A stretch of DNA of 64,000 bases, taken from the NCBI RefSeq assembly GCF_017876515.1, contig NZ_JAGIOC010000001.1:1922001-1986000 (forward strand). The letters run 5' to 3'. The notes under the pieces are model-generated. The model was not told where the DNA came from. It did no database searches and saw nothing but the letters and a program-made list of their open reading frames with translations. The first letter of the stretch is position 1. Each line of letters begins with the position of its first letter. Both the position numbers and the translations under genes were made by a program. The DNA comes from Brachybacterium fresconis (lineage in GTDB: Bacteria > Actinomycetota > Actinomycetes > Actinomycetales > Dermabacteraceae). This document shows, one piece after another, positions 11,415-38,572 of the stretch.

Positions 11415-14400
11415 TCACTCCTCCGTCGGGACGAATTCCACCGGGGCGACCGAGGAGTACCGGTCCTGCCGGATGGAGACCACGCCGACGCCCCCGATGA
11501 ACGGGGCCAGGGCCTGCGGGTTCTTGCCGGGGTTGGCCAGGATCACCTGGAACCCGAAGTGACGGAAGGACTCCATGGCAGCGGTGATGAACTTGCCGGC
11601 GCCCTTGGAGAAGGCCTCGTCGATGATGATCGGGGCGTAGCGGGGCACCTCGGCACCGGTGCCCGCCAGCTGGTAGCGCAGGGCCGCCGCCAGGCAGAAC
11701 GTGGCCAGGCGCTCGTTCTGGCCGCCGGAGAGCGGGCCGCCGGACTCATGGGCGTGGACCACCGTGCCCTCGGCGTCGATCTCCTCGGCGTGGAAGTGCA
11801 CGTGGCGGCGAACGTCGAGGATCACTCGGGAGACCTGGTCCTCGCGGGTGCGGGCCGCGCTGATCATGTCCATCAGGTGACGCAGGGACAGGAAGCGCTC
11901 CTCCGCCAGATCCCGGTCCCGGCTGATGTCGTTCAGCGCGGTGTCCGCGACGGCGTCCTCGAGCGCCCGCTTGAACTCGTCCAGCGCCGCCAGGTGCACC
12001 GGCCGCATGGACAGCTGCAGGTAGCGGCCGGAGTGGAACTCGACCTGGGCGAGCAGGGCGTTGATGCGCTGGAGGCGCTTGCGGATCTCCGCCGGTTCGC
12101 GGGCGATGGCGGTGGCCAGGGCCTGCACGTCGCCGAGGGTGTTGCCGGTGAAGAACTCGAAGAAGCGGTCCTCGACCTCCGGAAGCTTCTCCTCCTCGAT
12201 CCGCTGCAGGATCGCCAGGAAGTCCTCGACCCCTTCGAGGGTCGGGGCGGTGTCCCCGGCCTGCGCGGGCCAGCGGCGGGAGAACTCCCGCATGGCGGTG
12301 CGCATGTCCTCCTCCGCGCGGGAGGTGCGGCGGGTCAGCGCCATCAGCTCGGCGTCCAGCGTGGCCGAGGCGTCCTTGGTGACCTGGTCGATGTTGCCGA
12401 TCACCAGGGACGGGGCGATCGCTCGGAAGCGCTCGGCGAGCTCGGCCTCGACCTCCGGGTCCAGGCTGGACTCGGCGACCCGCTCGCGGGCCGCGGCCAG
12501 GCGCTCCTCGGCCCGCTCGGTCTGCTCGCCGAGCTTGCCGGCCGTGCGCACCACCTCCAGCAGCTCCTCGTCGGAGTCGGCGATGGAGCGCTCGACCTCG
12601 TCGATCTGCCGGGCCAGCTCGCTGAGGGCGGCGGAGCCGTCCTCGGCGGCGCGCACCATGTCGCCCAGGTTCGCGATCCGTCGCGCGACCGAGGCGGCGT
12701 CGATGTCGTCCCACTCGACGGCGCTGATCGACTGCAGGGCGTAGAGCCGTTCCCGGCGCTGCTCGCGCTCGGTCTCGACGTCCTTGCGGCGCGCCTGCGC
12801 CTCGAACAGCTCCTGCTCGGCGCGGGTGCGCTCGGCCTCGAACACGGCGCGCTTGGCCCGGTTGTCGAAGCCCAGGACCCACTGCGAGCGGTCGTTGATG
12901 CGGCGGTCGGCGTTCTTCTCGTGGCGGCTGGCGGAGTGCTTGATCTGACCGGAGCGCAGCACGGCCCGGTTCAGTCGCGTGAACTCCTCGAGGGACTCCG
13001 CACAGGTGTAGTCCATGCGGGAGGCGATCTCGTGGCTGAGCCAGACGTGGAACTCGCCGTCCTTGACGTCCAGCTTGGCGGCCAGGGTCCGCTCGTCGAT
13101 CGCCTTCGCGGGGCGGCGCAGGTCGGTGTTGACCCGGTTGTAGGAGATGCGTCGACGCAGCTTGGTGCGGTCGATGACCGCGGCGACCTCGCGGTAGACG
13201 CGGTCGGGCACCAGGATCGAGCGGGCCAGGCCGCGCAGCGCCTGCTCGGCGGCGGCGGTCCATTCCTCCTCGCCGGTGCGCACCTGGAGCAGCTCGGCGG
13301 CGAAGGGCAGCTCGGTGGGGGCGATGCCCACCTCGGAGGCGATGTGGTCGCGCAGGGCGACGTCCTCGGAGTGCAGGTTCGAGGCGCGGGAGGTGAGCGA
13401 GGCCAGCTCCTCCCGGGTGCTCTCGACGGTGGCGGACAGCTCGCGGACCCGCGCCTCCGCCTCCCAGCGGGCGGAGTCCGCCCCCTTCTCCTCGGTCTCG
13501 AGGGACTCGCGCAGGGTCTCGACCTCGCGCTGCAGGGCGAGGAAGAGGTCCTCCCCGGCGGGAGTGCGCAGATCGACCGTGGCCAGCTGCGCCGCGAACT
13601 CGGTGCCGCGCTCGCGGCGGCGGTCGCGCTCGACCTCGAGGCCGGCGATCTGCTGCTTCCAGTCGTCGATCTCACCGCCGCCGGCGCGCTTGCGCTGCTC
13701 CTTGAGCTGGGTGAGGTCCGAGCGGGCCTCGGCGACGTCCTGGGTCAGACGGCGCTGCTGGGCGCCGAGGCTGTCGCGCTCCAGCTGGAGACGCTCGGTC
13801 TCCTCCCCCAGCAGGCGCACCAGGTGCTGGGCGGCGTACACGTCGATGTCGGCCCGACGGTCCACCAGCTCCCCGCCGCGCTCGCGCATCGCGGTCCAGT
13901 CCTCATGGTTGCCGCGCAGGCCGCGCAGCAGATCGCGCTGCTCGCGGGCGGTGACCAGCGCCTCGTACACCTCCGAGAGGTTCTGGAAGTTCGCCAGCGC
14001 CTGATCGGCGAGCTCGAAGGTGCGCGGCGCATCGAGCATGTAGTCGCGCAGCAGGGCGTTGACGTCGCCGAGCTCCTTGGCGGACTGGATCTTGTGCAGC
14101 AGACCCAGCGCCTTCTCGTCCGGGATGCCCAGCAGCTGGCAGAAGGCGGCCCGGTACTCGCGGAACTGCCGGAAGGTGTCGGTGCCGGGGTGGGCGGCCT
14201 CGAGCGCCTTGCCCTCGATCTGGGAGGAGACGAACTGGCGCAGGTCGGTGACGTCCAGCGGCGTGCGGGAGATGACGTACAGGCTCTTGACGTCGGAGTC
14301 GGAGCTGTGGCCCGCGTGCAGCAGGAGCAGCCTCGAGAGCTGGACGGTGCCGCCCATCCCGTCGCCGTAGCGCAGGGTGAGCACCGACAGGGTGGTCTTC

Positions 14401-14813
14401 TCCCGCAGCACCTCCTGGCTGAACTCGCCGGTGGCCTGGTCGTAGTGCATCGCCCAGGCACCCCGCACGTAGCTGGCCACGGTGCGGCGGTACTTCGAAC
14501 GGGCCGGGCCCGCGTCGGAGGCCGCAGCGTTGAACTGCAGCGAGCGCGGCGGGGTCAGCAGAGCGCTGATGGCGTCCAGCAGGGTCGACTTGCCGGTGCC
14601 GGGCCCGCCGGTGAGGAAGTAGCCCTTGGTCGAGATCGGCAGATCGTGGGTGCCGTGGAAGGTTCCCCAGTTCGAGACCTGCACCGCGGTCAGGCGCCAC
14701 TGCCCCGGATGCGGATGGTCGGGATCGCGCGCGATGCTCTGCGCGGTCTCATCGGCCTCGGGCATGCCCGGCAGGTCGAGGCCGTCCTGGGCGGTATCGG
14801 TCGCGGAAGTCAC
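11415..14813 (-). CDS. jetC: SMC-like ATPase, JetC/MksB family
   Basis: 1132-aa SbcC/MukB-type ATPase of the JetABCD (Wadjet)/MksBEF condensin-like systems, which extrude DNA loops with JetA and JetB. Walker A GPGTGKST lies at residues 70-77, within the typical ...VSNWGTFHGTHDLPI... N-terminus. Long Glu/Arg-rich coiled coils flank a central hinge (about 480-620). The signature LSGGQ lies at 1028-1032 and Walker B IIIDEAF at about 1062-1068. All ATPase motifs are intact and the length is normal for the family. The GTG start has TAGTCT exactly 6 nt upstream, consistent with a leaderless transcript of its own. Its usual operon partners lie at 31.2-31.9 and 37.0-38.6 kb; no jetD follows it. Confidence 0.9.
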   Translation of the reverse strand: MTSATDTAQDGLDLPGMPEADETAQSIARDPDHPHPGQWRLTAVQVSNWGTFHGTHDLPISTKGYFLTGGPGTGKSTLLDAISALLTPPRSLQFNAAASDAGPARSKYRRTVASYVRGAWAMHYDQATGEFSQEVLREKTTLSVLTLRYGDGMGGTVQLSRLLLLHAGHSSDSDVKSLYVISRTPLDVTDLRQFVSSQIEGKALEAAHPGTDTFRQFREYRAAFCQLLGIPDEKALGLLHKIQSAKELGDVNALLRDYMLDAPRTFELADQALANFQNLSEVYEALVTAREQRDLLRGLRGNHEDWTAMRERGGELVDRRADIDVYAAQHLVRLLGEETERLQLERDSLGAQQRRLTQDVAEARSDLTQLKEQRKRAGGGEIDDWKQQIAGLEVERDRRRERGTEFAAQLATVDLRTPAGEDLFLALQREVETLRESLETEEKGADSARWEAEARVRELSATVESTREELASLTSRASNLHSEDVALRDHIASEVGIAPTELPFAAELLQVRTGEEEWTAAAEQALRGLARSILVPDRVYREVAAVIDRTKLRRRISYNRVNTDLRRPAKAIDERTLAAKLDVKDGEFHVWLSHEIASRMDYTCAESLEEFTRLNRAVLRSGQIKHSASRHEKNADRRINDRSQWVLGFDNRAKRAVFEAERTRAEQELFEAQARRKDVETEREQRRERLYALQSISAVEWDDIDAASVARRIANLGDMVRAAEDGSAALSELARQIDEVERSIADSDEELLEVVRTAGKLGEQTERAEERLAAARERVAESSLDPEVEAELAERFRAIAPSLVIGNIDQVTKDASATLDAELMALTRRTSRAEEDMRTAMREFSRRWPAQAGDTAPTLEGVEDFLAILQRIEEEKLPEVEDRFFEFFTGNTLGDVQALATAIAREPAEIRKRLQRINALLAQVEFHSGRYLQLSMRPVHLAALDEFKRALEDAVADTALNDISRDRDLAEERFLSLRHLMDMISAARTREDQVSRVILDVRRHVHFHAEEIDAEGTVVHAHESGGPLSGGQNERLATFCLAAALRYQLAGTGAEVPRYAPIIIDEAFSKGAGKFITAAMESFRHFGFQVILANPGKNPQALAPFIGGVGVVSIRQDRYSSVAPVEFVPTEE

Positions 14814-14819: not shown

Positions 14820-14825
14820 AGACTA
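14820..14825 (-). promoter_or_regulatory. -10 box TAGTCT, leaderless jetC
   Basis: TAGTCT, 6-nt gap, GTG at 14813 on the minus strand. It suggests jetC has its own promoter although jet genes are normally cotranscribed. Confidence 0.55.
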
Positions 14826-14902: not shown

Positions 14903-17002
14903 TCAGCCCTCCGGTCGGCCCTGGCGCCAGTACCCCATGAAGGAGACCTGGCGGCGGTCGATGCCGAGCTCGGAGACGAGATGGCGGCGCAGCATCTTGA
15001 TGGTGCCCGCCTCTCCCGCGAGCCAGGCGTAGAAGGTGCCGTGGCCGGTGGTGGTCTCCCACAGGATGCTGGAGTCGATGTCGATGTCCTCGAGCTCGGC
15101 GCGCCCGGCGCTGCCGCCGAGGCCGTCGGCGTCGAGACCGGCCTCGATCCGGAAGGCCTGGGCGTCCTCGCACATCAGCCGCTGGACCTCCGCGGCCATC
15201 AGCTCCCCGTGGGGCCGCTCGCCGCGGACGAGCCAGGTGACCTGGACCCCCGAGCGGGTGAGGACCTGCTGCTGGTCGGAGGCGTCGGGCACCTCGATCA
15301 CGGCGTGGCCGGCGATCGCCTCGGGCAGAGCCTCCAGGATCGAGCAGATCGCGGGAGCCGCGGTCTCGTCGCCGACCAGCAGCACGGTGCGGGCCGCGCC
15401 GGGACGGAACTCGATGCCTCCGTAGTCGGGGCCGACGACGTGCCGGTTCGGGCCGAGCATCGAGATGGTGTCGCCCACGCGGGCGTCGCGGGCCCAGCGC
15501 GCGGCGACGCCGCTGCCGGGGATCTCCTCCGCATCGAGGTGGAGGACCACGTCGATGTCGATCTCGGGATGCGCGGTCAGGTTGCCGGGATGGCCGGCTC
15601 CGCGCTGCGCCCGCACCGTGTAGGTGCGCATCCACCCGCGGTCGACGGGGTCGATCTGCAGCCACGTGCGGTACCACTCGGCGTGGGTGGCGGGGTCGAG
15701 CAGTGCGCCCGGGCGCACGGTGGCGAAGTGGTCGGCCGACGCCTCCGGGCCCCGGATGATCAGCTTGATCCGCATGTCCAGCGGATGCCCGCCGGCGCCG
15801 AAGTGCACCAGGTCCGGGGAGGTGAGGGTGAACCGCAGGAGGTTCTTCCCGATCGGCGTGATGGCTCCGACGCTCAGCTCGAAGGCGAGCTGGGAGCTCG
15901 CCTCGAGGGCCGGGGCCAGGGCGGGCACGGCGGTGGTGTCGGTCGCCGCCGCCTGTGCGCGGGCAGCGGTCGCGGTCGCGGCGCTGTGGGCGGCGGCCGC
16001 GGCGGCCTGGGTGGTCGTCGTCAAGGCGTCCTCCTGGGAATCGGCGGGGGCGGAGCGGCCATCTGCCGCGCTGTCGTCGTCGGCGGTGCGGGGCTCGGGG
16101 GCGTCGGCGGTGCGGGGCTCGGGGGCGTCGGAGGCGTCGGAGGCGTCGAGGCTGTCGCGGCCCAGCGGGAGCACCATCGGGCTCGCGGTGACGGGGTCGG
16201 GCACCACCAGGGCGTCGAGGTCGAAGACCTCGCGGACCATCTGCGCGGTGATCACGTCGGCGGGGGCGCCCTCGGAGTGGATCTCGCCGGAGAGCACCGC
16301 GACCAGGTGATCCGCATAGCGCGCGGCGAGGCCGAGGTCGTGCAGGACGATGCCGACGGTGGTGCCGCGGCGACGGTTGAGCTCCCGCACCACATCGAGC
16401 ACCTCGAGCTGGTGGGTGACGTCGAGGTAGGTGGTGGGCTCGTCCAGCAGCAGCACCTCGGTCTCCTGGGCCAGCGCCATCGCGATCCAGACCCGCTGGC
16501 GCTGACCGCCGGAGAGCTCGGCGACGGGACGGTCGGCCAGCTCCTCGCTGCGGGTGGCGGTCAGGGCCTCCTGGACGGCCCGCTCGTCGTCCTCGCTCCA
16601 TCGCGGGACCAGCCCCTGATGGGGGAAGCGCCCGCGGGAGACGAGCTCGCGCACGGTGACGCCGTCGGGCGCCTGCGGAGCCTGCGGCAGCAGGCCCAGC
16701 CGTCGGGCCAGGCTCTTGCCGCCCAGGGAGTGGATGTCGGTGCCGTCCAGCAGGACGCTGCCGCGGCGCGGCGTCATCAGGCGCGACAGTCCGCGCAGCA
16801 CGGTGGACTTCCCGCTGCCGTTCGCGCCGACGATGATCGTGATGCGGCCCTCGGGCAGGGCCAGGCTGAGGTCGTGGACGACCTCGCGCCGGTCGTAGGC
16901 CAGGTGGAGATGGCGGGCCTCCAGGAGAGGCCGGGGCGGAGCATCCTGGCCGCCCGGGCGTGCGGGGAGGGGGTCACGGGTGCGCGTCATGTCGAGCGTC
17001 AC
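14903..17002 (-). CDS. Fusion: siderophore ABC-transporter ATPase + siderophore-interacting FAD protein
   Basis: One 699-aa frame carries two iron-uptake proteins. Residues about 25-270 are a FepC/FecE-type ATPase: Walker A GANGSGKST 59-67, LSGGQRQR 163-170, Walker B LLLDEPTTYLD, H-loop His221. An Ala-rich linker (about 280-370) contains a duplicated APEPRTAD. Residues about 372-699 are a ViuB/SIP flavoprotein that reduces ferric siderophore (FAD motif RTYTVR; C-terminal FYAWLAGEAGTIK). The GTG at 17002 has GGGAGGA at good spacing. Inside the linker, AGGAGG plus 5 nt precedes an in-frame TTG at 16024, which could give free SIP. A DtxR-like box sits upstream. Confidence 0.88.
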   Translation of the reverse strand: MTLDMTRTRDPLPARPGGQDAPPRPLLEARHLHLAYDRREVVHDLSLALPEGRITIIVGANGSGKSTVLRGLSRLMTPRRGSVLLDGTDIHSLGGKSLARRLGLLPQAPQAPDGVTVRELVSRGRFPHQGLVPRWSEDDERAVQEALTATRSEELADRPVAELSGGQRQRVWIAMALAQETEVLLLDEPTTYLDVTHQLEVLDVVRELNRRRGTTVGIVLHDLGLAARYADHLVAVLSGEIHSEGAPADVITAQMVREVFDLDALVVPDPVTASPMVLPLGRDSLDASDASDAPEPRTADAPEPRTADDDSAADGRSAPADSQEDALTTTTQAAAAAAHSAATATAARAQAAATDTTAVPALAPALEASSQLAFELSVGAITPIGKNLLRFTLTSPDLVHFGAGGHPLDMRIKLIIRGPEASADHFATVRPGALLDPATHAEWYRTWLQIDPVDRGWMRTYTVRAQRGAGHPGNLTAHPEIDIDVVLHLDAEEIPGSGVAARWARDARVGDTISMLGPNRHVVGPDYGGIEFRPGAARTVLLVGDETAAPAICSILEALPEAIAGHAVIEVPDASDQQQVLTRSGVQVTWLVRGERPHGELMAAEVQRLMCEDAQAFRIEAGLDADGLGGSAGRAELEDIDIDSSILWETTTGHGTFYAWLAGEAGTIKMLRRHLVSELGIDRRQVSFMGYWRQGRPEG
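16022..16035 (-). promoter_or_regulatory. Internal Shine-Dalgarno and TTG start for free SIP domain
   Basis: AGGAGG (16035-16030 on the minus strand), 5-nt spacer, TTG at 16024-16022, in frame at residue 327 of the fusion and just before the SIP domain. This is probably a remnant or active start of a once-separate SIP gene. Confidence 0.55.
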
Positions 17003-17418: not shown

Positions 17419-19224
17419 ATGCAGGACGCGCGGAGCGGTTCGCGTCGGCCGGAGCGGCCCGGCCGCGACCGCGGCGCCGACCCGTCGGCCGACGGGACCC
17501 CGCTGACCCTGCAGGCCTCCCCCACGGTCTCCTCGACCTCGCAGGACCCGTCGACCTCCCTGTGGGACCGGGCCTTCCCCGCCGCCTGGTGGCGGCCGGT
17601 CCTGGCCGGGAGACCGGTGACGGTGCGCGTCGAGGGCGGCGCCGCCTCCCTGCGGGGCGCCCGGAACGGCCGCGCCCTGCGACTGGGACCGATCCCGGAG
17701 GGCCGCCGTGAGCTGACCGCCGACGACCTCGAGGCCGACTGGCTCTGGATCGAGGGGGACGCGACGGCGGTGACCTGGAGCATCGCAGCCGAGGCCACCC
17801 TGCCGCCGGTGACGGTGGTGGTCCCCACCTACCGCCGCGAGGCGGATGCGAGGCGGCAGGCCGACCGCTTCGCCCGGATGGACGTCGTGACCACCGTGGT
17901 GGTGATCGACCAGGGCGGGACCCTGGCCGAGGACGCCGCGTTCACCCGGCTGTGCGCCGCCTCCGACGCGATCCGCCTGGTGTCCCAGGAGAACCTGGGG
18001 GGCTCGGGCGGATACGCCCGCGGCATGCTCGAGGCCGCCGACGACCCCGGCGCCGCCGTGCTCTTCTCCGACGACGACGCCGTCCTCAGCGAGGAATCGC
18101 TGCGACGGATGCTCACCTATCAGGCGCTGGCGGAGCGACCCACGATCCTCGGCACGCCCCTGTTCTCCTCCGTCACCCCCAGCTACCTGGTCGCCCACGC
18201 CGAGTCCGTGCGCACCGGCATCTTCCAGTGGAAGCCCGCCGACAGCCTGGGTGACGGCGTCGACCTGGCCGGGACCACCCCGGAGCAGTGGACCTTCCTC
18301 TCCCCCGCGTCCGCGGTGAACTACACCGGCTGGTGGGGCACCCTCTTCCCGCCCGGCACCGTCGCCGACCTGGGCCTGCCCGCGCCGCTGTTCCTGAAGT
18401 GGGATGACGCCGAGTACGGTCTGCGCGCCACCGCGCACGGCTACGCGCATGCGGTCCTGCCCGGGACCTCCGTGCACCATCCGCCGTGGAACGCCTACCG
18501 CACCCAGATGACGTGGACCGCGCGCGTGCTGCACCGCAACCGCCTCGCGATCGCCGCCGCCTACGGGGCCGGACGCGGCGTGATCGGCTCCTCGCTGCTG
18601 CACCAGACCAAGCACATCCTGGCCGGCCACCTGCTGACCGCCGAGCTCTGGCAGGAGGGCATCACCGCCTTCCGGGCGGGCCCCGACGCCTGGCTGGGCA
18701 GCGACCTGCGCCGCGCCCGGGCCGAGGGGGCGCAGGTCGCGGAGACCTGGCACACCGAGCACGACGTCGACGAGACCGCGACCCCGACCCGCACCACGCC
18801 ACTGCCCCTGCTGCCGGCGGTGGGGCGCGCTCTGGTGCGGATGCTGCGGCCCGATCAGCCGCCGCGGGTGGTGCTGGCCGTCGATGCCGACGCCGTGCAC
18901 TGGCGCACCACGATGGGGGCCGACACCGTGATCATCACCGAGGACGGTCGGCCGCTGACCGCGTTCACGGTGCGCGGCTCCGACGCCCGGCGCGCCCTCG
19001 TGCGCACTGCGAGCTCCCACCTCGACCTCGCCGTGAACTGGGGGCGGCTGCGCCGCCGATACCATCGGACCCTCCCGCGGCACACCACCGCCGACTCCTG
19101 GGCCGCCCTGATCGGCACGGACCGCGCCACGGGGGCGAGAACCCCGGACGACCCGATCGACCCCCCTCGCCCGATCCCCCCGACCGATCCCACCGACCCG
19201 ACCACCCCGACCAGGAGGCCGTGA
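17419..19224 (+). CDS. GlfT2-like glycosyltransferase family 2
   Basis: 601-aa enzyme resembling actinobacterial galactofuranosyltransferase GlfT2. It has an N-terminal beta-sandwich-like region (about 45-120), then a GT-A domain starting VTVVVPTYRRE. The metal-binding FSDDDA (Asp218-220) and the WDD motif in LKWDDAEYGLR are present. A helical C-terminal part follows. It probably adds galactofuranose or a related sugar to a cell-surface polymer; the acceptor is unknown. GGTGAGGAG precedes the ATG. The stop lies 2 bp before the next start, so the two form an operon that opens the teichoic acid locus. The last 30 residues are Pro/Thr/Asp-rich. Confidence 0.85.
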   Translation: MQDARSGSRRPERPGRDRGADPSADGTPLTLQASPTVSSTSQDPSTSLWDRAFPAAWWRPVLAGRPVTVRVEGGAASLRGARNGRALRLGPIPEGRRELTADDLEADWLWIEGDATAVTWSIAAEATLPPVTVVVPTYRREADARRQADRFARMDVVTTVVVIDQGGTLAEDAAFTRLCAASDAIRLVSQENLGGSGGYARGMLEAADDPGAAVLFSDDDAVLSEESLRRMLTYQALAERPTILGTPLFSSVTPSYLVAHAESVRTGIFQWKPADSLGDGVDLAGTTPEQWTFLSPASAVNYTGWWGTLFPPGTVADLGLPAPLFLKWDDAEYGLRATAHGYAHAVLPGTSVHHPPWNAYRTQMTWTARVLHRNRLAIAAAYGAGRGVIGSSLLHQTKHILAGHLLTAELWQEGITAFRAGPDAWLGSDLRRARAEGAQVAETWHTEHDVDETATPTRTTPLPLLPAVGRALVRMLRPDQPPRVVLAVDADAVHWRTTMGADTVIITEDGRPLTAFTVRGSDARRALVRTASSHLDLAVNWGRLRRRYHRTLPRHTTADSWAALIGTDRATGARTPDDPIDPPRPIPPTDPTDPTTPTRRP

Positions 19225-19226
19225 AC

Positions 19227-20477
19227 ATGCCGGCACGCGGGAACGCCCTCCGCCGCAGGGTGCGCAGCCTCGGCGGCAAGCTGCTGCGCCGCTACCGCCT
19301 GCTGCCCGGCGGGATGCCGGACGGCCTCGGGGACGACGAGGCCCTGCGCGGAGCGAGTCTGGACGGCGAGGTGGTCGTGTACTTCCCCGACACGGTCGAC
19401 AGCCTCTACCAGCTGCGCAGCTGGTACGGGCCGCTGCGCGAGCTGCACGCCGCCCAGGGCGTGACCGTCGTGTGCATGGACTCCCGCACCGCCGCGACGA
19501 TCCGCGAGGAGAGCGCGCTGCCGACGGTGACCATCGCCCTGGACGCCACGCTGGATGCGATCATCCTGCGCAGCGGCACGAAGCTGGTGCTGTACGTGAA
19601 CTTCAACCCGCTGAACACGGCGGCCCTGCGCTCCCGCTCGGCGATCCACATCTCGCTGCTGCACGGGGACTCCGACAAGGCGGTCTCGGTCTCCAACCAG
19701 GTCAAGGCCTACGACTACTCCTTCGTCGCCGGGCAGGCCGCGATCGACCGGTTGGAGCGGTACACCTCCCTGTTCGACGCGTCCGCCCGCTGCATCCCGA
19801 TCGGTCGCCCTTCGCTGGACACCGACTCGGTGCCCCGCAGCCCCGGCTCCCCCGATCGCCCGGTGGTGCTCTATGCGCCGACCTGGGAGGGCGGCCAGGC
19901 CTCCGTCGGGTACTGCTCCCTGCTCACCCACGCGGAGCCGACGGTGGCCTCGCTGGTCCGGGCCGGCCTCGCCGTCATCTACCGCCCCCACCCGCTCACC
20001 GGGGTGCGGGTGCCCGAGTACGGGGAGGCCGACGCCGCCCTGCGCGCACAGGTGGAGGCCGCCGGCTCCCTGGTGAGCACGGACCGCCCCCTGCAGCAGG
20101 ACTTCGCCGACGCGGATCTGCTGCTGTGCGACGTCTCCGCCGTGGCGAACGACTGGCTGCCCACGGGCCGGCCGCTGATCATCACCCGCTCCACCGATCC
20201 GCAGGCGCACGACGCCGGCACCGAGCTGCTCGGCGTGGTGCCGCGCCTGGCCGCAGCGGACGCGGACGACGCCGGAGCGACAGCGCGGGCGCTGATCGAG
20301 CACGACCCGCTGCTGGAGAAGCGGATCGAGCTGACCGAGTACTACCTCGGGGACACCACCCCCGGGGCCTCCCTGCAGCGGTTCCTGGACGCCTGCCGCC
20401 ACCTGGCCGCCCGCCGGGACGAGCTGTGGAGCCGGATCCAGGAGAACGAGGGGATCACCTCCCCCGATCCGAGCTGA
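19227..20477 (+). CDS. CDP-glycerol glycerophosphotransferase family (TagF/TagB-like)
   Basis: 416-aa peripheral membrane polymerase-type enzyme that transfers polyol-phosphate from CDP-glycerol or CDP-ribitol to a teichoic acid chain. A strongly basic N-terminus fits membrane attachment. Family motifs: LLHGDSDKAVS, YAPTWEGG, YRPHPLTG with the catalytic His-Pro, and CDVSAVANDWL. The ATG at 19227 has AGGAGG 8 nt upstream; the in-frame GTG at 19221 is too close to the SD. With a TarI-like enzyme directly downstream, ribitol-phosphate is a plausible substrate, but this is inference. Confidence 0.85.
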   Translation: MPARGNALRRRVRSLGGKLLRRYRLLPGGMPDGLGDDEALRGASLDGEVVVYFPDTVDSLYQLRSWYGPLRELHAAQGVTVVCMDSRTAATIREESALPTVTIALDATLDAIILRSGTKLVLYVNFNPLNTAALRSRSAIHISLLHGDSDKAVSVSNQVKAYDYSFVAGQAAIDRLERYTSLFDASARCIPIGRPSLDTDSVPRSPGSPDRPVVLYAPTWEGGQASVGYCSLLTHAEPTVASLVRAGLAVIYRPHPLTGVRVPEYGEADAALRAQVEAAGSLVSTDRPLQQDFADADLLLCDVSAVANDWLPTGRPLIITRSTDPQAHDAGTELLGVVPRLAAADADDAGATARALIEHDPLLEKRIELTEYYLGDTTPGASLQRFLDACRHLAARRDELWSRIQENEGITSPDPS

Positions 20478-20545
20478 GCCGGCCGCCGGCGGTGAGGGAT
20501 GACTCGCGCTCCCGCGTGCCGACCGGAAAACCCACCGCGGGCTTG

Positions 20546-20551
20546 TACAGT
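20546..20551 (+). promoter_or_regulatory. -10 box TACAGT upstream of tarI-like gene
   Basis: TACAGT about 113 nt before the tarI-like ATG. The leader contains a CACGGG...CCCGTG inverted repeat. Confidence 0.4.
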
Positions 20552-20663
20552 GAACGCCACGGGCCGTCCCGGTGACAGCCCCGTGAACTCGACGGATGCG
20601 GGCCTGTGACCAGGCGACTCGTCGCCTGTGGGCAGACCCGCCAGCCCGCACGAAGGAACCCAT

Positions 20664-21350
20664 ATGTACTCACTCATCCTCCTCAACGGTGGGATAGGCG
20701 CTCGCACCGGTGCGAGTCAGCCGAAACAGCTCCTCAAGCTCCGAGGGATACCGATCCTGGTGTACGCGCTCGTCACCGCAGATCGGGTCGAGCAGATCTC
20801 GCAGATCGTGGTGAACTACCCGCCCGATTGGCGCGATCAGGTCGAGGAGGTCCTCGAGGCCTACGCGATCTCGACCCCGGTCACGCTGGTGGAGGCCGGA
20901 GATTCCCGGCACTCCTCGGTCGCCGCGATGCTTCCGCACTGCACCAACGACGACGTGATCATCCACGAGTCGGCTCGCCCCCTGGTGCGGACCTCCGACT
21001 TCCAGCGGCTGATCGACTCGCAGCACCGCAACGTCTCGCTGATGTCCGAGATCTCCTTCACGGTCGCTCCCGTGGACCCGGAGACCTCCGCGGTCACCGG
21101 CTCCCTCGAGCGCGACCGGCTGCGCAACGTGCAGCTGCCGCAGAAGTTCTCGAAGTCCGATCTGCAGGACGCGCACTCGCGGGCCCTGGAGCAGAGGACC
21201 GAATACACCGAGGACGCCACGCTGGTCGCCGACAGCGGGTTCCCCGTCCACTTCGTGGATGGATCGGACCGCAACTTCAAGGTCACCACCAGCACCGATC
21301 TGAAGATGGCAGGATTCCTCCTGCGACCCGAGGAGGACGACGATGAGTAA
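20664..21350 (+). CDS. tarI: D-ribitol-5-phosphate cytidylyltransferase (TarI/IspD family)
   Basis: 228-aa IspD-like nucleotidyltransferase. The N-terminal signature GGIGARTGASQPKQ binds CTP, and the domain runs to the end of the protein. Actinobacterial isoprenoid IspD is possible, but the context points to teichoic acid: a TagF-like gene upstream and an overlapping SDR downstream, the same two domains that make CDP-ribitol in Haemophilus Bcs1/Acs1. The ATG has AAGGAA upstream at normal distance. It overlaps the SDR start by 8 bp, indicating translational coupling. Confidence 0.85.
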   Translation: MYSLILLNGGIGARTGASQPKQLLKLRGIPILVYALVTADRVEQISQIVVNYPPDWRDQVEEVLEAYAISTPVTLVEAGDSRHSSVAAMLPHCTNDDVIIHESARPLVRTSDFQRLIDSQHRNVSLMSEISFTVAPVDPETSAVTGSLERDRLRNVQLPQKFSKSDLQDAHSRALEQRTEYTEDATLVADSGFPVHFVDGSDRNFKVTTSTDLKMAGFLLRPEEDDDE

Positions 21351-22050: not shown

Positions 22051-22072
22051 CTCCGACGCGTTCCTGATGACA

Positions 22073-22107
22073 GCAGGGCCCGTGCACCGGTGGTGCACGG
22101 GCCCTGC
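22073..22107. terminator. Bidirectional terminator between teichoic acid half-operons
   Basis: Perfect 16-bp stem (22073-22088 with 22092-22107) and a 3-nt loop, lying between the convergent SDR and TagH-like genes. Confidence 0.85.
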
Positions 22108-22151
22108 TGCCGTCCGGGCTGCTGTCCGGAGGTCACATCGGCCGCGGAGCC

Positions 22152-27003: not shown

Positions 27004-27237
27004 GGGACCTCATCTCTCGGGGGGTCTGGGGCTCGCGTCGGCCGAGCGGAATGCAGCGCCCGCTCCGCGCCCCGACCGCCGGGGCTGTCGCTGGCGGGAA
27101 GCGTAGCACCAGCTTCTTCGCAGGTCAGGACCGGGACGTGCCGGACTCGTGCGACCCGGGCACGAGAACCACGCCAGGTCACAGCGCCATCACGACACCG
27201 GATCCGAGCTCAGGAAGGACCTCTCGGGACCGGATGC

Positions 27238-28971: not shown

Positions 28972-29069
28972 GCGTGGCACCTCTCGTTCCGGGGCAGGAG
29001 GACGCCCCGTCTCGCGCGGGGCACCGCACGATCTTGCCATGCGCGGAGCGCCCGGCGTGCGCGCTGGGG

Positions 29070-31028
29070 TCAGCGCGCCCGCCGGCGCGGACGGCGCAGT
29101 CCCACCCGGCGGGCGAGGTCCCGGGCCGTTCGTGCCACGTCCTCGACGGCCGCCACCGCGCCGTCCGGGATGCTGGGCCCCGACGGATCGACGGTGGGGA
29201 ACACCACCGGATCGGGCAGACGCACGATCACGGCCCCGTCGGCATCGGCCACCCGGATCCTCCGATCCGAGCCGCGGACCGTGGAGGGCAGGGCCGCGGC
29301 GAGCAGCCCGTCTCGCAGGGAGACCGTCGGGATCTCCTCGCCGGGGCGGTCCTGGTCGATGCCGCGGAGCGTGGAGATCCGCAGGGACGCCGGACGCTGG
29401 ACCCGCAGCAGGGCGACGTGGCGGCCCGGCGCGGTCTCCAGCACCGAGAGCATCTCGGCCAGGGGGCCGGCCCGGGTGATGCGGACGTACCCGATGTCCA
29501 CGGAGAGGTTCCCGAAATCCCGGGTGAAGTAGGCCGTCCCCACCTCCCGGCCGTCCGCGTCGGTCACCAGGCGACGCTCCGAGGTGATGTGGGGGCTCCG
29601 GCGACCGCCGAGCCGGTTCTGGATCTCCTGGTCCCCGTAGCGCTGGACGACATGCACGTCCCAGACCGCTCTCTCCAGCCCGGAGACCTCGACCTCGGCA
29701 CGGAAGCGCACCGCGTCCCCGGAGCTCCCGGAGGGCCCTCCCTCCCCCGCGAGCTCCACGTCGTGGGCCGGCACCTCGAAGCTCTCCTCCGTCCCGCGCC
29801 GGCGGACGCGCAGCACGACGCCGTCCGGAGGGGTCGTGCTGCGCCGGACCTGAGCCCGGGCACCGATCCGGAGGCGCCCGTCCTCCACGACGAGCTCCTC
29901 GAGAGCGACCATCCCGACCACCTTCACGTCGCGGAGCTCCTCCTGGCCGATCGACTCCACCAGATCCGCCGGCAGGTCGAAGCGGAAGGCCCCGTCCTCG
30001 ACGACCAGGGACTCCTCACCCCCGTCCTTCTCCCACCGGATCAGCTCGCGCAGGAGGTCGGTGAGCCCCGCGAGAGCGAGCCTCACCTTCAGCCGGTACA
30101 GGGGCTCGAGATGTCCCCAGACGCGTTCCGTCAGGTAGGGACCGATCGCCTCCTGGATATCGGTGACCACGGACTCCTGCTCCGCCTCGGACAGGCTCAG
30201 GAATCGCGAGCGAACCGATTTGCGCAGCGCTCCGCGCACCGGACGCCGCAGGAGACCGTCGCGAAGCTCTCCCGGCTCGGTCCCGTCGATGATGACGTCG
30301 ACCGTCGCAGCCAGCAGCGCCGTGTAGTCCAGCGAGGTCCGGGAATCGGAGGTGACGTTGTCCCCGCCCTCCCTCGTGCGGATCAGCACGTAGGCGCGGT
30401 CGGCGCGGATGCTGATCTTCCGCGCTGCCAGGTAGCAGGTCAGCGTGAACGGCTGGTCCGAGCCGACCCGCAGATGGGTCGGGTTGTGCGCGCCCGTCCT
30501 GCGCACCAGATCCGTCCGGAACAGCTTGATCGCCGTCAGCGAGTTGAAGAGGCTGTCCTGGACCAGGTCGGCCTCGGCCTTCGAATGCGTGAACATCGAC
30601 CCCGGGGCGTGGCGTCCGTTCAGGCCCACCATCCGCGCCAGGACGATGTCGGAGCCCTCCTCCTCCGCGTAGGCCACCAGCTCGCCGAGCGCTCCCTCGG
30701 TGAGCACGTCGTCGGAGCCGAGGACGAAGAAGTATTTCCCGCGCGCAGCCGCGATCCCCTTGTTGCAGGGATCGGCGGGGCCGCCGGAGTTGGGCTGATC
30801 CAGGACCCGGTAGTTGGGGTATCGCTCGGCGTACTCGGCCAGGACCTTCTCGGAACCGTCGTCGGAGCCGTCGTTGACCAGGATGACCTCGAGCTCGGCG
30901 GGACCGAGCCGTTGCTCGGGGATCGCATCGAGCGTCTCCAGCAGGTACGGCATCGAGTTGTACACCGGGATGACGAGCGATACGAGCGGTCGATCGCTCC
31001 CCCGCCGACTGCTGCTGCCCTGACTCAT
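29070..31028 (-). CDS. Glycosyltransferase family 2 with long C-terminal region
   Basis: 652 aa, paralogue of the GT2 at 24982. GT-A domain: VSLVIPVYNSMPYL, VNDGSDDGS and LGSDDVLT, with Gly-Ser-Asp-Asp in place of LDSDD. C-terminal helical and beta-rich regions continue to residue 650. GAGGAGG precedes the ATG by about 8 nt. It is the first gene of the minus-strand teichoic acid half-operon, about 200 bp from jetB. Probably a second teichoic acid-decorating enzyme; the donor sugar is not readable from sequence. Confidence 0.84.
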   Translation of the reverse strand: MSQGSSSRRGSDRPLVSLVIPVYNSMPYLLETLDAIPEQRLGPAELEVILVNDGSDDGSEKVLAEYAERYPNYRVLDQPNSGGPADPCNKGIAAARGKYFFVLGSDDVLTEGALGELVAYAEEEGSDIVLARMVGLNGRHAPGSMFTHSKAEADLVQDSLFNSLTAIKLFRTDLVRRTGAHNPTHLRVGSDQPFTLTCYLAARKISIRADRAYVLIRTREGGDNVTSDSRTSLDYTALLAATVDVIIDGTEPGELRDGLLRRPVRGALRKSVRSRFLSLSEAEQESVVTDIQEAIGPYLTERVWGHLEPLYRLKVRLALAGLTDLLRELIRWEKDGGEESLVVEDGAFRFDLPADLVESIGQEELRDVKVVGMVALEELVVEDGRLRIGARAQVRRSTTPPDGVVLRVRRRGTEESFEVPAHDVELAGEGGPSGSSGDAVRFRAEVEVSGLERAVWDVHVVQRYGDQEIQNRLGGRRSPHITSERRLVTDADGREVGTAYFTRDFGNLSVDIGYVRITRAGPLAEMLSVLETAPGRHVALLRVQRPASLRISTLRGIDQDRPGEEIPTVSLRDGLLAAALPSTVRGSDRRIRVADADGAVIVRLPDPVVFPTVDPSGPSIPDGAVAAVEDVARTARDLARRVGLRRPRRRAR

Positions 31029-31229: not shown

Positions 31230-31928
31230 TCAGCCGCTCTCGGCGGCCGCATCCTCGGCTCCGCCCTCGGTCTCCTCGGCGTCGTCCGCCGGATCCTCGA
31301 GACCGCCGACGCCGGCCTGTCGGTACAGCGCGATGAACTCACGGGCGGTATCCGGTCCGATCATCAGGCGCAGCACCGGGGAGACCTCGTAGTCATCCCC
31401 CTGCTCGTCGAGCAGACCGGCTCGCTGGATCTTGGCGATCGCGGCGCGGACCTCCTTGGCGAAGCCGGCCTCGTCGGTCGAGGTGGTGCGGCGGTAGGCG
31501 GCCAGCGCCTGCTGGATCTCGGCCTCGGAGACCACGGTGCGCTGACCGCGGGAGGACTGGGTCAGCAGCATCTGGCGCAGCACCAGCAGCAGCACGGAAT
31601 CCAGACGGTTCAGGCCGGTCAGGCGGCGCAGCAGCTTGGGCGCATCGGGGTCGGACTCGCTCTGGCGCACGAAGGCGACCTGGGCATCGTCGTCGACCAC
31701 GAGCTCGAGGAAGAGATCCGCCAGGCGGGCCTCGATCCCGGCGCGATCGCGCAGCAGCTGGGCATAGCGCGCGGGGTCGCGCCGACCGTCCAGGAACGGA
31801 CCCTGCAGCAGGTGCACGAGGACCCGCCGGGAGTCCTCGACGAGGGCGGTGCCGGGAAGCGACGTCGCGTCCTCGACACCGGCATCCCGGGCGTCATCGG
31901 CTTCGGTACGGGGCACAGAGCTGGTCAC
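31230..31928 (-). CDS. jetB: JetB/MksE (DUF4194) condensin-like subunit
   Basis: About 232-aa winged-helix kleisin-associated subunit of JetABCD/MksBEF complexes. It shows the DUF4194 pattern: VLVHLLQGPFLDGRRDPARYAQLL, an ELVVDDDAQVAFVRQ block, LTGLNRLDSVLLLVLRQML, a VVSEAEIQQAL helix and a C-terminal winged helix (IQRAGLLDEQGDDYEVSPVLR). The acidic tail is Glu/Asp/Ala-rich. The GTG at 31928 is chosen because TACAGT lies 8 nt upstream; an in-frame GTG at 31934 is only 2 nt from that box. It is isolated between the teichoic acid cluster and a divergent membrane protein instead of lying between jetA and jetC. Confidence 0.85.
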   Translation of the reverse strand: MTSSVPRTEADDARDAGVEDATSLPGTALVEDSRRVLVHLLQGPFLDGRRDPARYAQLLRDRAGIEARLADLFLELVVDDDAQVAFVRQSESDPDAPKLLRRLTGLNRLDSVLLLVLRQMLLTQSSRGQRTVVSEAEIQQALAAYRRTTSTDEAGFAKEVRAAIAKIQRAGLLDEQGDDYEVSPVLRLMIGPDTAREFIALYRQAGVGGLEDPADDAEETEGGAEDAAAESG

Positions 31929-31936: not shown

Positions 31937-31942
31937 ACTGTA
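31937..31942 (-). promoter_or_regulatory. -10 box TACAGT, leaderless jetB
   Basis: TACAGT with an 8-nt gap to the GTG at 31928 on the minus strand. Confidence 0.5.
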
Positions 31943-34006: not shown

Positions 34007-34237
34007 TCAGGCACCCTTGCGCACGGTGATGGACCAGCCGGCGTCGCCGACGCGGTCGAAGGCGACCACGTCATGGCCGTCCTCGGCGGCCCACTGAGGC
34101 AGCGAATCGGTGGCCTGGGTGCAATCGAAGCCGATGATCAGGTCGTCACCGGAGCTCAGCTGCTCCATCGCGCTCTTCGCATCGATCAGGGGGAAGGGGC
34201 AGACGGCCCCGTTGGTCTCCAGGGTGTAGGCGGTCAT
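34007..34237 (-). CDS. TusA/YeeD-family sulfurtransferase-like protein
   Basis: 76-aa SirA/TusA-fold protein. The conserved Cys-Pro motif in AVCPFPLIDAK carries the persulfide, and the C-terminal GWSITVRKG strand is typical. AAGGAG precedes the ATG. It lies 63 bp downstream of the YeeE-type permease on the same strand. YeeE-YeeD pairs take up thiosulfate and hand its sulfur to cell metabolism, and that is the likely role here. Confidence 0.88.
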   Translation of the reverse strand: MTAYTLETNGAVCPFPLIDAKSAMEQLSSGDDLIIGFDCTQATDSLPQWAAEDGHDVVAFDRVGDAGWSITVRKGA

Positions 34238-34300
34238 GAGAACTCCTTGTCACATCGTGGTCCGGGATGTCGGTCGTGGTCCGGGAAGCCGGGAGCGGCT

Positions 34301-35368
34301 TCAGGCGGCAGGGGTGAGCACCGGGGCAGGGCGGCTCGCGGCGGCCGCCTTCTGCGGCCGCACCAGGAAGATCCAGGCGGCGCCCCAGGTGCCGAGCATG
34401 ATCGCGAGGAACGAGACCCAGCCCTGGTAGCTGAACAGGCTGGTCTCGACGAGGGAGTTGCCGATGGTGCAGCCGCCGGCGAGGGAGGCTCCGATGCCCA
34501 TCGCCACGCCGCCTCCGCCGCTGCGCAGCATGGTGGAGGCGTCCGGCACCCGCCAGCGGAACTCGCCCGAGGCCTTGGCGGCGATGAAGGAGCCCACCAG
34601 GATGCCCAGGACCAGCATCACCGACCAGTCGACGAGGGTGACGTCGCCCGTGGTGAGGAAGGTGACGATCTTCGCGGAGGGGGTGGTGATGCCCAGGCCG
34701 CCGTTGCGTCCGGCCGCGGTGGACAGCGGCCAGGCGATGATCGCGATCAGGCCCAGCAGCACGCCGCCCGCCCACGGGTTCCAGACGACGTCGGCGAGGT
34801 AGCGGCCCAGGCCCGTGCGGCGGGCGGGCAGCTTCGCGGTCCGGTGCCGGGCATTGATGCGGATCTGCCGGACGACGAGCACGGCGACGATCGCACTGAA
34901 GACGACGACGGGCACCCAGACGCTGACCCCGAGGGTCTCCTGGATGGTGGTGTCCCCGACCGTGCGGGCGCGGGCGGCGTCGTTGAAGCCGGCCAGCGGC
35001 CCGTACTTCATGACCGCGGCGAACAGCGCGTAGAAGATCAGGGCCACCCAGGAGCCGAGCAGGCCCTCCCCGGCGCGGTAGTAGGTGCCGGTGGCGCAGC
35101 CGCCGGCCATGACGATGCCGATGCCGAACAGGAAGCCGCCGCCGACCACGGCCAGCGGGGCGAAGCTCGCGGGCTCGGGGGCGATCACGCCGATGCCGGT
35201 CAGGGCGGCGACGCCGATCGCCTGGATCGCGATGGCCAGGAGGAAGGGGACGAAGTAGCGCGAGGAGCGCGCCATGTAGAGGTCACGGAAGGCGCCGGTG
35301 ACGCAGAAGCGCGAGCGCTGCAGCACGTAGCCGAGCGCGGCGCCGAGGAGGAGGCCGGTGAGGATCAT
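34301..35368 (-). CDS. YeeE/YedE-family thiosulfate/sulfur transporter
   Basis: 355-aa integral membrane protein with about 9-10 hydrophobic helices and two pseudo-repeats. The three conserved cysteine sites that pass thiosulfate in TsuA/YeeE are present: RSRFCVTGAF, GGCATGTYYR and GGCTIGNSL. The ATG at 35368 sits at a TAGCGT box with a 6-nt gap, so the transcript is probably leaderless and continues into the TusA-like gene. Confidence 0.9.
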   Translation of the reverse strand: MILTGLLLGAALGYVLQRSRFCVTGAFRDLYMARSSRYFVPFLLAIAIQAIGVAALTGIGVIAPEPASFAPLAVVGGGFLFGIGIVMAGGCATGTYYRAGEGLLGSWVALIFYALFAAVMKYGPLAGFNDAARARTVGDTTIQETLGVSVWVPVVVFSAIVAVLVVRQIRINARHRTAKLPARRTGLGRYLADVVWNPWAGGVLLGLIAIIAWPLSTAAGRNGGLGITTPSAKIVTFLTTGDVTLVDWSVMLVLGILVGSFIAAKASGEFRWRVPDASTMLRSGGGGVAMGIGASLAGGCTIGNSLVETSLFSYQGWVSFLAIMLGTWGAAWIFLVRPQKAAAASRPAPVLTPAA

Positions 35369-35512: not shown

Positions 35513-36583
<1,071 letters not shown>

Positions 36584-36638: not shown

Positions 36639-37058
36639 ATGCCCACGAACCGCCCCCGCACCCGGATGGACGACCTCACGGTCGAACGGGTGCTGCGCGT
36701 GGTCGAGGCGATCCCACCGGGGCGGGTGGCCGCCTACGGCGAGGTGGGCGCCGTCGTCGGCGTCGGACCCCGCCTGGTGGGACGGATCCTGCGCACCTGG
36801 GGCTCCGGGGTGCCGTGGTGGCGGGTCACCAACGCCTCCGGGGACCATCCTCTGCTGGGCCGCGCCCTCCCCCACTGGGAGGCCGAGGGCATCATCGTCA
36901 AGCGCAACGGCCTCGGCTGCCGGATGGCGGAGTTCGGCGCCGACCTGGAGCAGCTGCGAAAGGAGTCGGCCCCATCGCTCGCGGACCTCGAGCGCCTCGA
37001 CGCCGGTGACAGCGCCGACGACCGCGCTCACTCCACCGGCACGTCGTCCAGGAAGTAG
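36639..37058 (+). CDS. MGMT-family alkyltransferase-like protein (ATL)
   Basis: 139 aa; the DNA-binding domain of O6-alkylguanine-DNA alkyltransferase without its N-terminal domain. GRVAAYGEV and the wing region are conserved. The active-site PCHRV is replaced by PWWRV (GVPWWRVTNASG), so the alkyl-accepting Cys is missing. ATL proteins bind alkylated guanine and flag it for nucleotide excision repair. The usual ATL form is PWHRV; here the His is also changed to Trp. The 3' end overlaps jetA convergently by 31 bp. Confidence 0.88.
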   Translation: MPTNRPRTRMDDLTVERVLRVVEAIPPGRVAAYGEVGAVVGVGPRLVGRILRTWGSGVPWWRVTNASGDHPLLGRALPHWEAEGIIVKRNGLGCRMAEFGADLEQLRKESAPSLADLERLDAGDSADDRAHSTGTSSRK

Positions 37059-38572
37059 AACGAGGGGATCTTCGCGGCGTAGAGGTTCCCGTCCAGCTCC
37101 TGCCAGGTGACGACCTCGGTGGACCCCTCGCGCTCCTGCGCATGGGAGGTGGCCAGGAACATGAGGCCGATGACGCTCGCGAGTCCCTGCTGGGCGGGCT
37201 GCTCCCGCAGCACGTCGCCGATCGAGGCCTGCCCGGAGCGGCCTCGCACGTCGTTGACGTGGCCGGTCAGCCCCACCAGGTCGATGTCGTTGGCGCGCAC
37301 CAGGTCCGCCAGCACCTCGACGCTGAGCGCCGTGGCGTCGTGGACCTCGGCCTCGGCAGGCGCCCCGGGATCGGTGGGGTCCTTGAGCCGATGCTGGGAC
37401 ACCGAGGAGAGCTGGACCCGCGAGAGGTCCAGGTCGAGCGGGAAGGGGGTGCGGGTGACGACCTCGTCCTTCTGCGCGAGGGCCACGCCCTGCGCCTCCT
37501 GGAGCGCCTCCAGCAGCACGCGGTGCTGGCGGAAGTCCTGGGAGCGCACGAAGCGCGCCAGCGAGCGGTACAGCTCGGTCTTGACGTCCAGCACCTCCTG
37601 GGCCGGGTCGTAGAGGTCGCTGAACACGTTGGCCAGGCGCTCGCGCTCGTCCCGGCTGAGGCTGCGGGCGAAGTCGCGCTCGAGGAGACGGTCCACGAGC
37701 TCCTGGGCGGTGCGGGTCTGACCCGGGTCGTTGAGCATCCGGAAGAACGCGGTGAAGGTGCGGCCGACGCTGGACTGGCCCAGCAGGTCGTCCCCGGCCA
37801 GCAGCTGCTCGAGGATCTCGCCGCGAGAGGTCTCCGGGGAGAGGATCTGCTCGCGCAGATGCAGATCGACCGCACGCAGGTCCTCGCGATACTGGAGGAA
37901 GTCGCCGGAGAGCTCGGAGGCGATCTGCAGGATGTCGCGCAGCCGGTCGGTGGAGGCTTCCTCGCTGGGCAGCATGAGCTCACCCTCGGCGAGCTCGCGG
38001 ATCTGCGCCTCGACGCTCTCGCGCTGACGCTGCAGGTCCGCCAGGCGCACGTCGCGGTCGGTCTCGGTCTCGTGCGCCAGGCGCTCGAACTGCTGGACCA
38101 CCAGGGTCAGGCGCGACTCGGTGGTGGTGGGCCGGTGCTCCTCGAGGGAGGCGATGAACTGGATCGCGTCGATCGTGGCGGGCGAGGGCTCGAAGGTGGT
38201 CTCGGTGCGCTGCGGGTCGTCGCGACGGGTCAGATAGCCCTCGCGCACCCAGCCGTCCACGTATTCGGCGGCGCTGCGGCCGCTGCGACCCTCCGTGCTC
38301 TCGTCATCGTCGTCGACGACATCCGCGGAGGCGGGATCCTCGTCGTGCAGCAGCGATAGATGGGCCCCCACGCGGGCGACGAGCTCGCTGCGCGGCAGGC
38401 GTCGATCGCCGGCGGGGAAGACGGACTGCAGGATCGCCAGGACGGCAGGGGCCTTGGTCGCGGCGAGCAGGCGCCAGGTGCTGGCCCGGCGCAGCTGCTC
38501 GTAGGCCTCCTTGCGCGCGGACACGGCGTCGCTGCGGCGGTCGGTCCACCGGTTCGGCTCGGTCGTGGTCAC
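37028..38572 (-). CDS. jetA: JetA/MksF (DUF3375) condensin-like kleisin subunit
   Basis: About 514-aa DUF3375 protein, the kleisin of JetABCD/MksBEF. Family pattern: N-terminal YEQLRRASTWRLLAATKAPAVLAILQSVF, winged-helix region with EYVDGWVREGYLTR, FIASLEEHRPTTTESRL, the long coiled coil ETDRDVRLADLQRQRESVEAQI, and the C-terminal winged helix. The GTG at 38572 is chosen because TAGACT lies 8 nt upstream. Alternatives (ATG at 38599, GTG at 38644) have no SD and add non-family residues. Separated from jetB by about 5 kb of unrelated genes. Confidence 0.87.
   Translation of the reverse strand: MTTTEPNRWTDRRSDAVSARKEAYEQLRRASTWRLLAATKAPAVLAILQSVFPAGDRRLPRSELVARVGAHLSLLHDEDPASADVVDDDDESTEGRSGRSAAEYVDGWVREGYLTRRDDPQRTETTFEPSPATIDAIQFIASLEEHRPTTTESRLTLVVQQFERLAHETETDRDVRLADLQRQRESVEAQIRELAEGELMLPSEEASTDRLRDILQIASELSGDFLQYREDLRAVDLHLREQILSPETSRGEILEQLLAGDDLLGQSSVGRTFTAFFRMLNDPGQTRTAQELVDRLLERDFARSLSRDERERLANVFSDLYDPAQEVLDVKTELYRSLARFVRSQDFRQHRVLLEALQEAQGVALAQKDEVVTRTPFPLDLDLSRVQLSSVSQHRLKDPTDPGAPAEAEVHDATALSVEVLADLVRANDIDLVGLTGHVNDVRGRSGQASIGDVLREQPAQQGLASVIGLMFLATSHAQEREGSTEVVTWQELDGNLYAAKIPSFYFLDDVPVE

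Follow-up and report, generated by a model that had tools for sequence, protein, structure and literature searches.

Introduction

Wadjet type I (JetABCD, also named MksBEFG or EptABCD) is an anti-plasmid defence system encoded by a compact operon of four genes, the nuclease JetD being recognised by its DUF3322 and JetD_C domains; the related MksBEF was reportedly defined by Petrushenko in 2011. We describe here a stretch of 64,000 nucleotides from Brachybacterium fresconis (hereafter the window; positions 1,922,001-1,986,000 on the larger contig of a genome of 4.63 Mb in two contigs), in which jetA, jetB and jetC lie scattered among other genes and jetD is missing. An earlier reading of the window from its sequence alone (the original prediction) had noticed the three genes, and the finding is larger than was then thought, as the arrangement extends across the family Dermabacteraceae, where Smc and ScpA were not found outside a single outlying genome. 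We propose that a nuclease-less Wadjet core probably became the sole chromosomal condensin of these bacteria after loss of Smc-ScpAB, in parallel to MukBEF.

The closest described systems are as follows, each source being cited for the passage concerned. A 2023 review (PMC10586767) states that MukBEF replaced Smc-ScpAB in enterobacteria and their relatives, the one replacement described in that passage, and speculates that MukBEF and MksBEF had a Wadjet-type defence origin. MksBEF is widespread, often alongside SMC-ScpAB or MukBEF, according to a 2013 review (PMC4255302). Nearly all of 100 actinobacterial genomes surveyed, that of B. faecium being one of the 100, are reported to have Smc, ScpA and ScpB (PMC4255298). 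Corynebacterium glutamicum is reported to have both SMC-ScpAB and MksBEFG, with MksB not shaping the chromosome (PMC7083940) and with MksF as the link to MksG (PMC10123090). Term searches found SMC and condensin unmentioned in the main text of the genome papers on B. faecium (PMC3035206) and B. equifaecis (PMC10581053), and among the literature matches listed (titles and starts of abstracts) no paper dealt with loss of Smc in Dermabacteraceae.

The three genes of the window

The genes in question, which would together encode one complex of kleisin, KITE subunit and SMC ATPase, are:

37028..38572, minus strand: jetA/mksF, DUF3375 kleisin (514 aa, GTG start), matching DUF3375, PADLOC JetA1 and Wadjet JetA chains
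31230..31928, minus strand: jetB/mksE, DUF4194 KITE subunit (232 aa, GTG start), with the N-terminal L[WF]xxDxGxL motif missing
11415..14813, minus strand: jetC/mksB, SMC-like ATPase (1132 aa, GTG start)

All three are on one strand, with 5.1 kb between jetA and jetB and 16.4 kb between jetB and jetC. Profile searches bore out the prediction of intact subunits in A-B-C order on the minus strand, each protein matching the family named for it: JetA matched Pfam DUF3375 (E 8e-134, model positions 2-474 of 474) and PADLOC JetA1 (2e-148), JetB matched Pfam DUF4194 (E 1.7e-42), with the MksE model also above its cut-off at a far lower score, and JetC matched PADLOC JetC1 (E=0, profile positions 7-1101 of 1112) as well as AAA_29 and SbcC_Walker_B. 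JetC carries a Walker A motif (GGPGTGKS), the LSGGQ signature and a Walker B motif (IIIDEA).

Among solved structures, sequence matches were confined to Wadjet JetC and JetA chains (8dk2, 8as8 and others), and JetB matched none. No Muk family was among the Pfam matches of the window proteins and the four structure matches of JetC include no MukB chain, MukB models not having been searched genome-wide. The DUF3375, DUF4194 and JetC/MksB proteins thus place the locus in the Wadjet/JetABC (MksBEF) core and not in the MukB/MukE/MukF sequence family, while the compact four-gene operon and the JetD of a Wadjet defence system are both missing. JetC proteins 73-95% identical to that of the window occur at 28 named loci, all from Brachybacterium except one from Dermabacter hominis, one from Helcobacillus and two on contigs of an Actinomycetales metagenome-assembled genome.

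Smc and ScpA across the family

JetA, JetB and JetC were each found in all 47 Dermabacteraceae genomes, from six genera, including the small genomes G045 and G046 (1.9-2.0 Mb); the JetA of G029 is a contig-edge piece. In 46 of these, that is the family minus the outlier G044 (genus g5), the genes are assigned to what we call the core type, by tree in 33 and by model scores in the rest. The ScpA model gave no match in any of the 46, and was positive in G044 and in 9 of 14 control genomes (ScpB was not searched). Similarly the SMC_hinge model was absent from 45 of the 46, and was positive in G044, in 32 of the 33 genomes drawn from other families of the order and in 10 of the 14 controls; the B. 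fresconis genome itself is negative for both models. The hinge search took in 80 genomes, made up of the 47 of the family and the 33 of other families, 29 of them picked for having JetA without JetD (28 of which have the hinge) and four lacking JetA. With Smc and ScpA not found family-wide, the earlier suggestion that JetABC may be a chromosome condensin is strengthened to one that it is probably the only condensin.

A marginal hinge match in G019 (3e-4) was rejected as Smc, since it falls in a 348-aa LacI-family regulator, as was a weak second match of the JetC model lying 110 kb beyond jetA in the B. fresconis genome, which resembles SbcC. Such weak second JetC-like matches were read in eight genomes, and for two of them a family search gave SbcC-type models as the best matches, below their cut-offs. 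In G153, from another family of the order, a tight JetABC without JetD occurs and the Smc hinge is also unmatched, a possible second loss of Smc.

It might be argued that Smc and ScpA have diverged beyond recognition by the models, and that JetABC would then be, like the MksBEF of Pseudomonas aeruginosa, no more than an accessory condensin. The absence does stand on two Pfam models, and the emptied syntenic sites were not located (see below). This explanation would, however, need two independent subunits to have escaped detection in the same 46 genomes by models that find ScpA in G044, and the hinge in G044 and nearly all the other-family genomes, while the remaining SMC-type match resembles SbcC; we therefore regard it as very improbable.

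JetD and second Jet copies

The original prediction saw no jetD in the window, and this holds for the whole 4.63 Mb genome, in which DUF3322 and JetD_C gave no match (both models were positive in the C. glutamicum control). The genome has one DUF3375 gene, which excludes a second complete jetABCD elsewhere in it. Nor is a JetD hidden right after jetC: neither Pfam nor PADLOC gave a match for the open reading frames (ORFs) at 10583-11335 and 11026-11418, and the 169-aa protein encoded at 10438-10947 matches nothing in Pfam or NCBIfam. The last lies directly after jetC, on the same strand, in 21 of the 25 Brachybacterium genomes compared, and is not next to jetC in the seven genomes of other genera compared.

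Across the family JetD_C was found in 8 of 47 genomes and adjoins a core gene in none of them; outside G044, JetD was not found in 39 of the 46. In five genomes (G006, G016, G018, G027 and G035) JetD_C comes after a second jetABC, itself tight, with a JetC 32-34% identical to that of the window. In G044 it follows the genome's only jetABC, of non-core type (JetC 26% identity), in G023 it stands alone and in G002 it is a fragment. The complete second jetABCD of G035 (C1:2861613-2868400) sits as cargo within the core B-C gap, on the opposite strand.

In a sample of 182 genomes of the order outside the family, 29 of the 66 bearing JetA have no JetD. These JetD-less sets are unlike the Dermabacteraceae core, as their JetA and JetC are tightly linked, their JetB, where read, retains the N-terminal motif discussed below and the Smc hinge accompanies nearly all of them. 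Four genomes of another family (G051, G066, G199 and G227) have two jetABC sets each, one adjoining JetD and one not, and the JetD-less sets of G066 and G227 group with other JetD-less sets of their family in the JetC tree.

That JetABC without JetD also occurs outside the family, and that a protein of unassigned family follows jetC in most Brachybacterium, would fit a persisting anti-plasmid defence with an unrecognised nuclease encoded elsewhere, which was the other option left by the original prediction. But defence systems are patchy and mobile, in contrast to a core found unlinked in 46 of 46 genomes; Wadjet has been acquired separately, as a complete jetABCD, in five of them; and the 169-aa protein is not beside jetC in the other genera. 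A distant nuclease is weakened further by the rarity of JetD_C and by its never lying beside the core, and we consider this explanation quite unlikely.

Tree, selection and the JetB motif

The analysed core rows comprise 33 JetC, 33 JetB and 32 JetA of the 46 genomes (seed models: 30 JetA, 32 JetB and 32 JetC). The JetC tree has 59 rows, of which the 33 from the core fall into a single clade (Shimodaira-Hasegawa approximate likelihood ratio test, SH-aLRT, 100), with a long stem (2.26) followed by short branches, and this clade stands beside Wadjet JetABCD rows (SH-aLRT 97); the second copies of Brachybacterium form a separate clade among JetABCD (SH-aLRT 100). Walker A, LSGGQ and Walker B are kept in all 33 core JetC. 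The ratio of nonsynonymous to synonymous substitution rates was 0.02-0.27 in ten close pairs for each of the three genes (first 60 codons left out), and the core genes are under purifying selection.

JetD is reported to touch JetB at an N-terminal motif, IFDR (PMC10586767). Among our sequences L-W-x-x-D-x-G-x-L stands just before the first conserved JetB helix in 14 of 15 JetD-linked JetB, namely those of nine loci of other families and five Brachybacterium second copies, with G044 as the exception, and in 0 of 33 core JetB. The stricter form of the pattern was present in 5 of the 9 JetABCD rows of the order, and the looser form, [LT][WF]xxDxGx[LF], in all 9, with the core still at 0 of 33 (the JetB of G153 was not counted). 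We take this motif to be a putative JetD contact site; its loss supports a nuclease-free core without being decisive.

Splitting of the operon and promoters

Outside the family JetC follows JetA on the same strand, at 664-1117 bp, in all 73 copies of the 66 JetA-bearing genomes, so that within this sample of 182 genomes loss of linkage is specific to Dermabacteraceae. The order A-B-C and the strand of the core are nevertheless kept in each of the 36 family genomes with all three genes on one contig (in the other 10 of 46 they are split over contigs), the gaps between matched stretches ranging from 153 bp to 73 kb for A-B and from 125 bp to 37 kb for B-C. In G045 and G046 (genus g6) all three genes are tight; in the genomes of genera g2 and g4 B-C is tight and only A-B is open; and in Brachybacterium and G042 (g3) both joints are open. 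Mapped on the JetC tree, the B-C joint appears to have been opened on more than one occasion.

These layouts fit the earlier view of an ancestral operon split by insertion, and the comparison of relatives, which had been proposed as a check, brought out what the original prediction missed, that the arrangement is common to the family. Shared landmarks (below), the kept order and the differing cargo suggest that the genes stayed put and other genes moved in; most likely, then, the core genes were stationary and cargo was inserted between them in place.

The original prediction also gave each gene its own promoter, and the -10 boxes that it noted, 6-8 nt before the GTG starts, are present as TAnnnT hexamers:

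38581..38586, minus strand: -10 box TAGACT, 8 nt before the jetA GTG
31937..31942, minus strand: -10 box TACAGT, 8 nt before the jetB GTG
14820..14825, minus strand: -10 box TAGTCT, 6 nt before the jetC GTG

Across the core rows a TAnnnT box lies 5-9 nt before a possible start in 31 of 32 jetA, 31 of 33 jetB and 26 of 33 jetC, as against 398 of 70,417 start-like codons of the same DNA (0.57%), the test of the genes being somewhat more lenient than the background, as it took any in-frame start up to 80 codons from the anchor. In the single jetA miss, G033, the start lies beyond the stretch analysed. The jetC box is present in 26 of 26 genomes with B and C apart versus 0 of 7 with B and C touching; the jetB box is present even in the tight G045 and G046. 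Actinobacterial genes commonly have leaderless starts of this kind. To judge from their sequence and spacing, the boxes are predicted leaderless promoters, jetC having its own only where it is cut off from jetB.

A probable chromosomal condensin without Smc

Our favoured explanation is that JetD would have been lost from a Wadjet (JetABCD/MksBEFG) core in the ancestor of the Dermabacteraceae other than genus g5, and that JetABC would have become the housekeeping condensin at the time of Smc-ScpAB loss. By the mechanism of its family, a dimer of JetABC motors would be expected to bind the chromosome and extrude DNA loops with ATP, without cutting; assembly of such a complex, its loop extrusion on the chromosome and the functional replacement of Smc are what the gene content would predict. 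Once the complex was permanent, the genes may no longer have needed to travel as a cassette, and cargo could have been inserted between them, each gene then standing under a leaderless promoter. Stages of this splitting are still represented in living genomes, with no gap in g6, the A-B gap alone in g2 and g4, and both gaps in g3 and Brachybacterium.

Compared with Wadjet type I, the core is alike in the full-length matches of its three subunits, in the JetC and JetA structures that it matches and in its place in the tree beside JetABCD; it differs in having neither JetD nor the JetB motif, in being dispersed with separate promoter boxes, in occurring in every family genome searched and not patchily, and in that Smc and ScpA were not found alongside it. 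The MksBEF of P. aeruginosa is, as the core would be, a nuclease-less Jet-like complex acting on the chromosome, but that bacterium is reported also to have SMC (PMC7485682), which Dermabacteraceae, as far as the models find, have not. Enterobacterial MukBEF offers the likeness of a Muk/Jet-type complex serving as main condensin in place of Smc-ScpAB (PMC10586767), and differs in phylum and sequence; in contrast, the Dermabacteraceae genes are dispersed, and ParA-ParB and parS are kept in the two genomes whose origin could be read.

Several observations weigh against a sole condensin derived from Wadjet. The sister placement of the core and JetABCD clades is unsure, as the tree was a quick one and its long branches were flagged. 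All 10 other-family JetB that were read from loci lacking an adjacent JetD keep a motif of this type (two of these loci belong to genomes that encode JetD elsewhere), and it is missing from the JetB of G044 although that genome has JetD; together these rule out the motif as a pure marker of JetD. A search for the emptied smc and scpAB sites did not locate them: no counterpart of the ftsY, ffh or scp-block neighbours of G044 was found in G000 between 1.722 and 2.078 Mb or at the other loci analysed, and the same neighbours were unmatched in G019 between 1.97 and 2.17 Mb and at the contig ends of five genomes. Downstream of pyrG-NUDIX, where we would presume a xerD-parA-scpAB block, G000 has a sugar transporter (gene names from reading the sequences). 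The absence of Smc and ScpA rests accordingly on family models and not on empty sites. Core B and C are frameshifted in G027; most neighbouring genes there are frameshifted too, which makes an assembly error likelier than loss of the system. Finally, in G016, a single contig that is 99% complete, the core jetA is cut by an insertion:

L186, 7306-11367: core jetA of G016, interrupted by an IS21-type element (transposase 8048-9526, IstB 9523-10269), with a second copy of the element near that genome's jetABCD

As this strain has a JetABCD of its own, the core may be dispensable there.

Smc-ScpAB could alternatively have been dispensable, and lost for that reason, with JetABC serving a different conserved function, for instance in DNA repair or in the handling of DNA linked to replication, and not in global folding. 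C. glutamicum without smc is reported to have no growth phenotype, and its MksB no effect on chromosome contacts (PMC7083940, in the passage cited), and a repair gene of alkyltransferase type lies between A and B in 25 Brachybacterium. Segregation might also be handled by ParA-ParB alone: dnaA was seen in two of the five genomes whose contig ends were read, G041 and G008, and both have ParA and ParB beside a cluster of parS-like sites. Yet the 46 genomes that have lost Smc and ScpA are the very ones in which a JetD-less SMC complex has become fixed, and the MksBEF of C. glutamicum retains its nuclease, unlike the core described here. We consider another job for JetABC rather unlikely, and a condensin role the probable one.

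The parS-like clusters lie near parB at the origin, in G041 at 12535-13731 of locus L246 (11 sites with 0-3 mismatches) and in G008 at 11428-12566 of locus L252 (7 sites with 2-3 mismatches); ten other stretches scanned had no parS-like site. With ParA-ParB and parS kept in these genomes, loading of JetABC by ParB is conceivable, and we suggest, tentatively and with more doubt than conviction, a second, independent takeover by a defence SMC in which ParB at origin-proximal parS may load JetABC instead of Smc.

If the replacement of Smc-ScpAB is true, the family would be an independent, actinobacterial replicate of it with stages still visible, from JetABCD together with Smc (G044), through a tight JetABC without Smc (G045, G046), to partly and then fully split genes in other genera. 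It would then be possible to test in culturable bacteria whether chromosome folding can pass to a defence SMC, and which changes that requires.

Neighbouring genes and repeats

The genes between and around the core include the following:

46929..48116, minus strand: tgt, upstream landmark (TGT 1e-116)
36639..37058, plus strand: alkyltransferase-like DNA repair gene (MGMT DNA-binding domain PF01035, 1.6e-10), reading PWWRV
34007..35368, minus strand: sulphur cargo in the A-B gap, a Sulf_transp transporter at 34301-35368 (PF04143, 3e-104) and a 76-aa neighbour
17419-30965, both strands: teichoic-acid type cluster in the B-C gap
14903-17002, minus strand: siderophore ABC/SIP fusion in the B-C gap
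3639..10475: downstream landmarks, a maltokinase-like gene (8952-10475, plus strand), a CshA-type surface protein (6899-8773, minus strand) and genes at 4889 and 3639

The alkyltransferase-like gene sits between jetA and jetB in all 25 Brachybacterium genomes compared; we take PCHR to be the usual motif where it reads PWWRV. The cargo is more variable. The cluster of the transporter gene at 34301 is found in only 8 genomes, and the B-C gap holds glycosyltransferases of teichoic-acid type, an IspD-family enzyme, an ABC exporter and the siderophore fusion, the siderophore and teichoic-acid genes having been gained, lost or reordered among relatives. In G033 the teichoic-acid type cluster lies in the A-B gap and not in B-C, which suggests that the gaps are interchangeable landing sites for cargo.

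Upstream, tgt was found in 15 of the 32 core genomes compared; it adjoins jetA in G038-G041 and is one gene off in G045 and G046. Downstream, the maltokinase, CshA, 4889 and 3639 genes were found in 21, 18, 20 and 14 of the 32, respectively. The stretches analysed are short, so that misses in these counts are not absences, and G042, with four gene calls only, was left out of the table.

Three repeat arrays accompany the genes of the window. Just past jetC there are two tandem arrays, of about four 31-bp units (11086-11240) and about four 23-bp units (11237-11355), and a CGAACA hexamer array (36417-36530) lies in the 3' part of ORF 35513-36583, beside the alkyltransferase-like gene.

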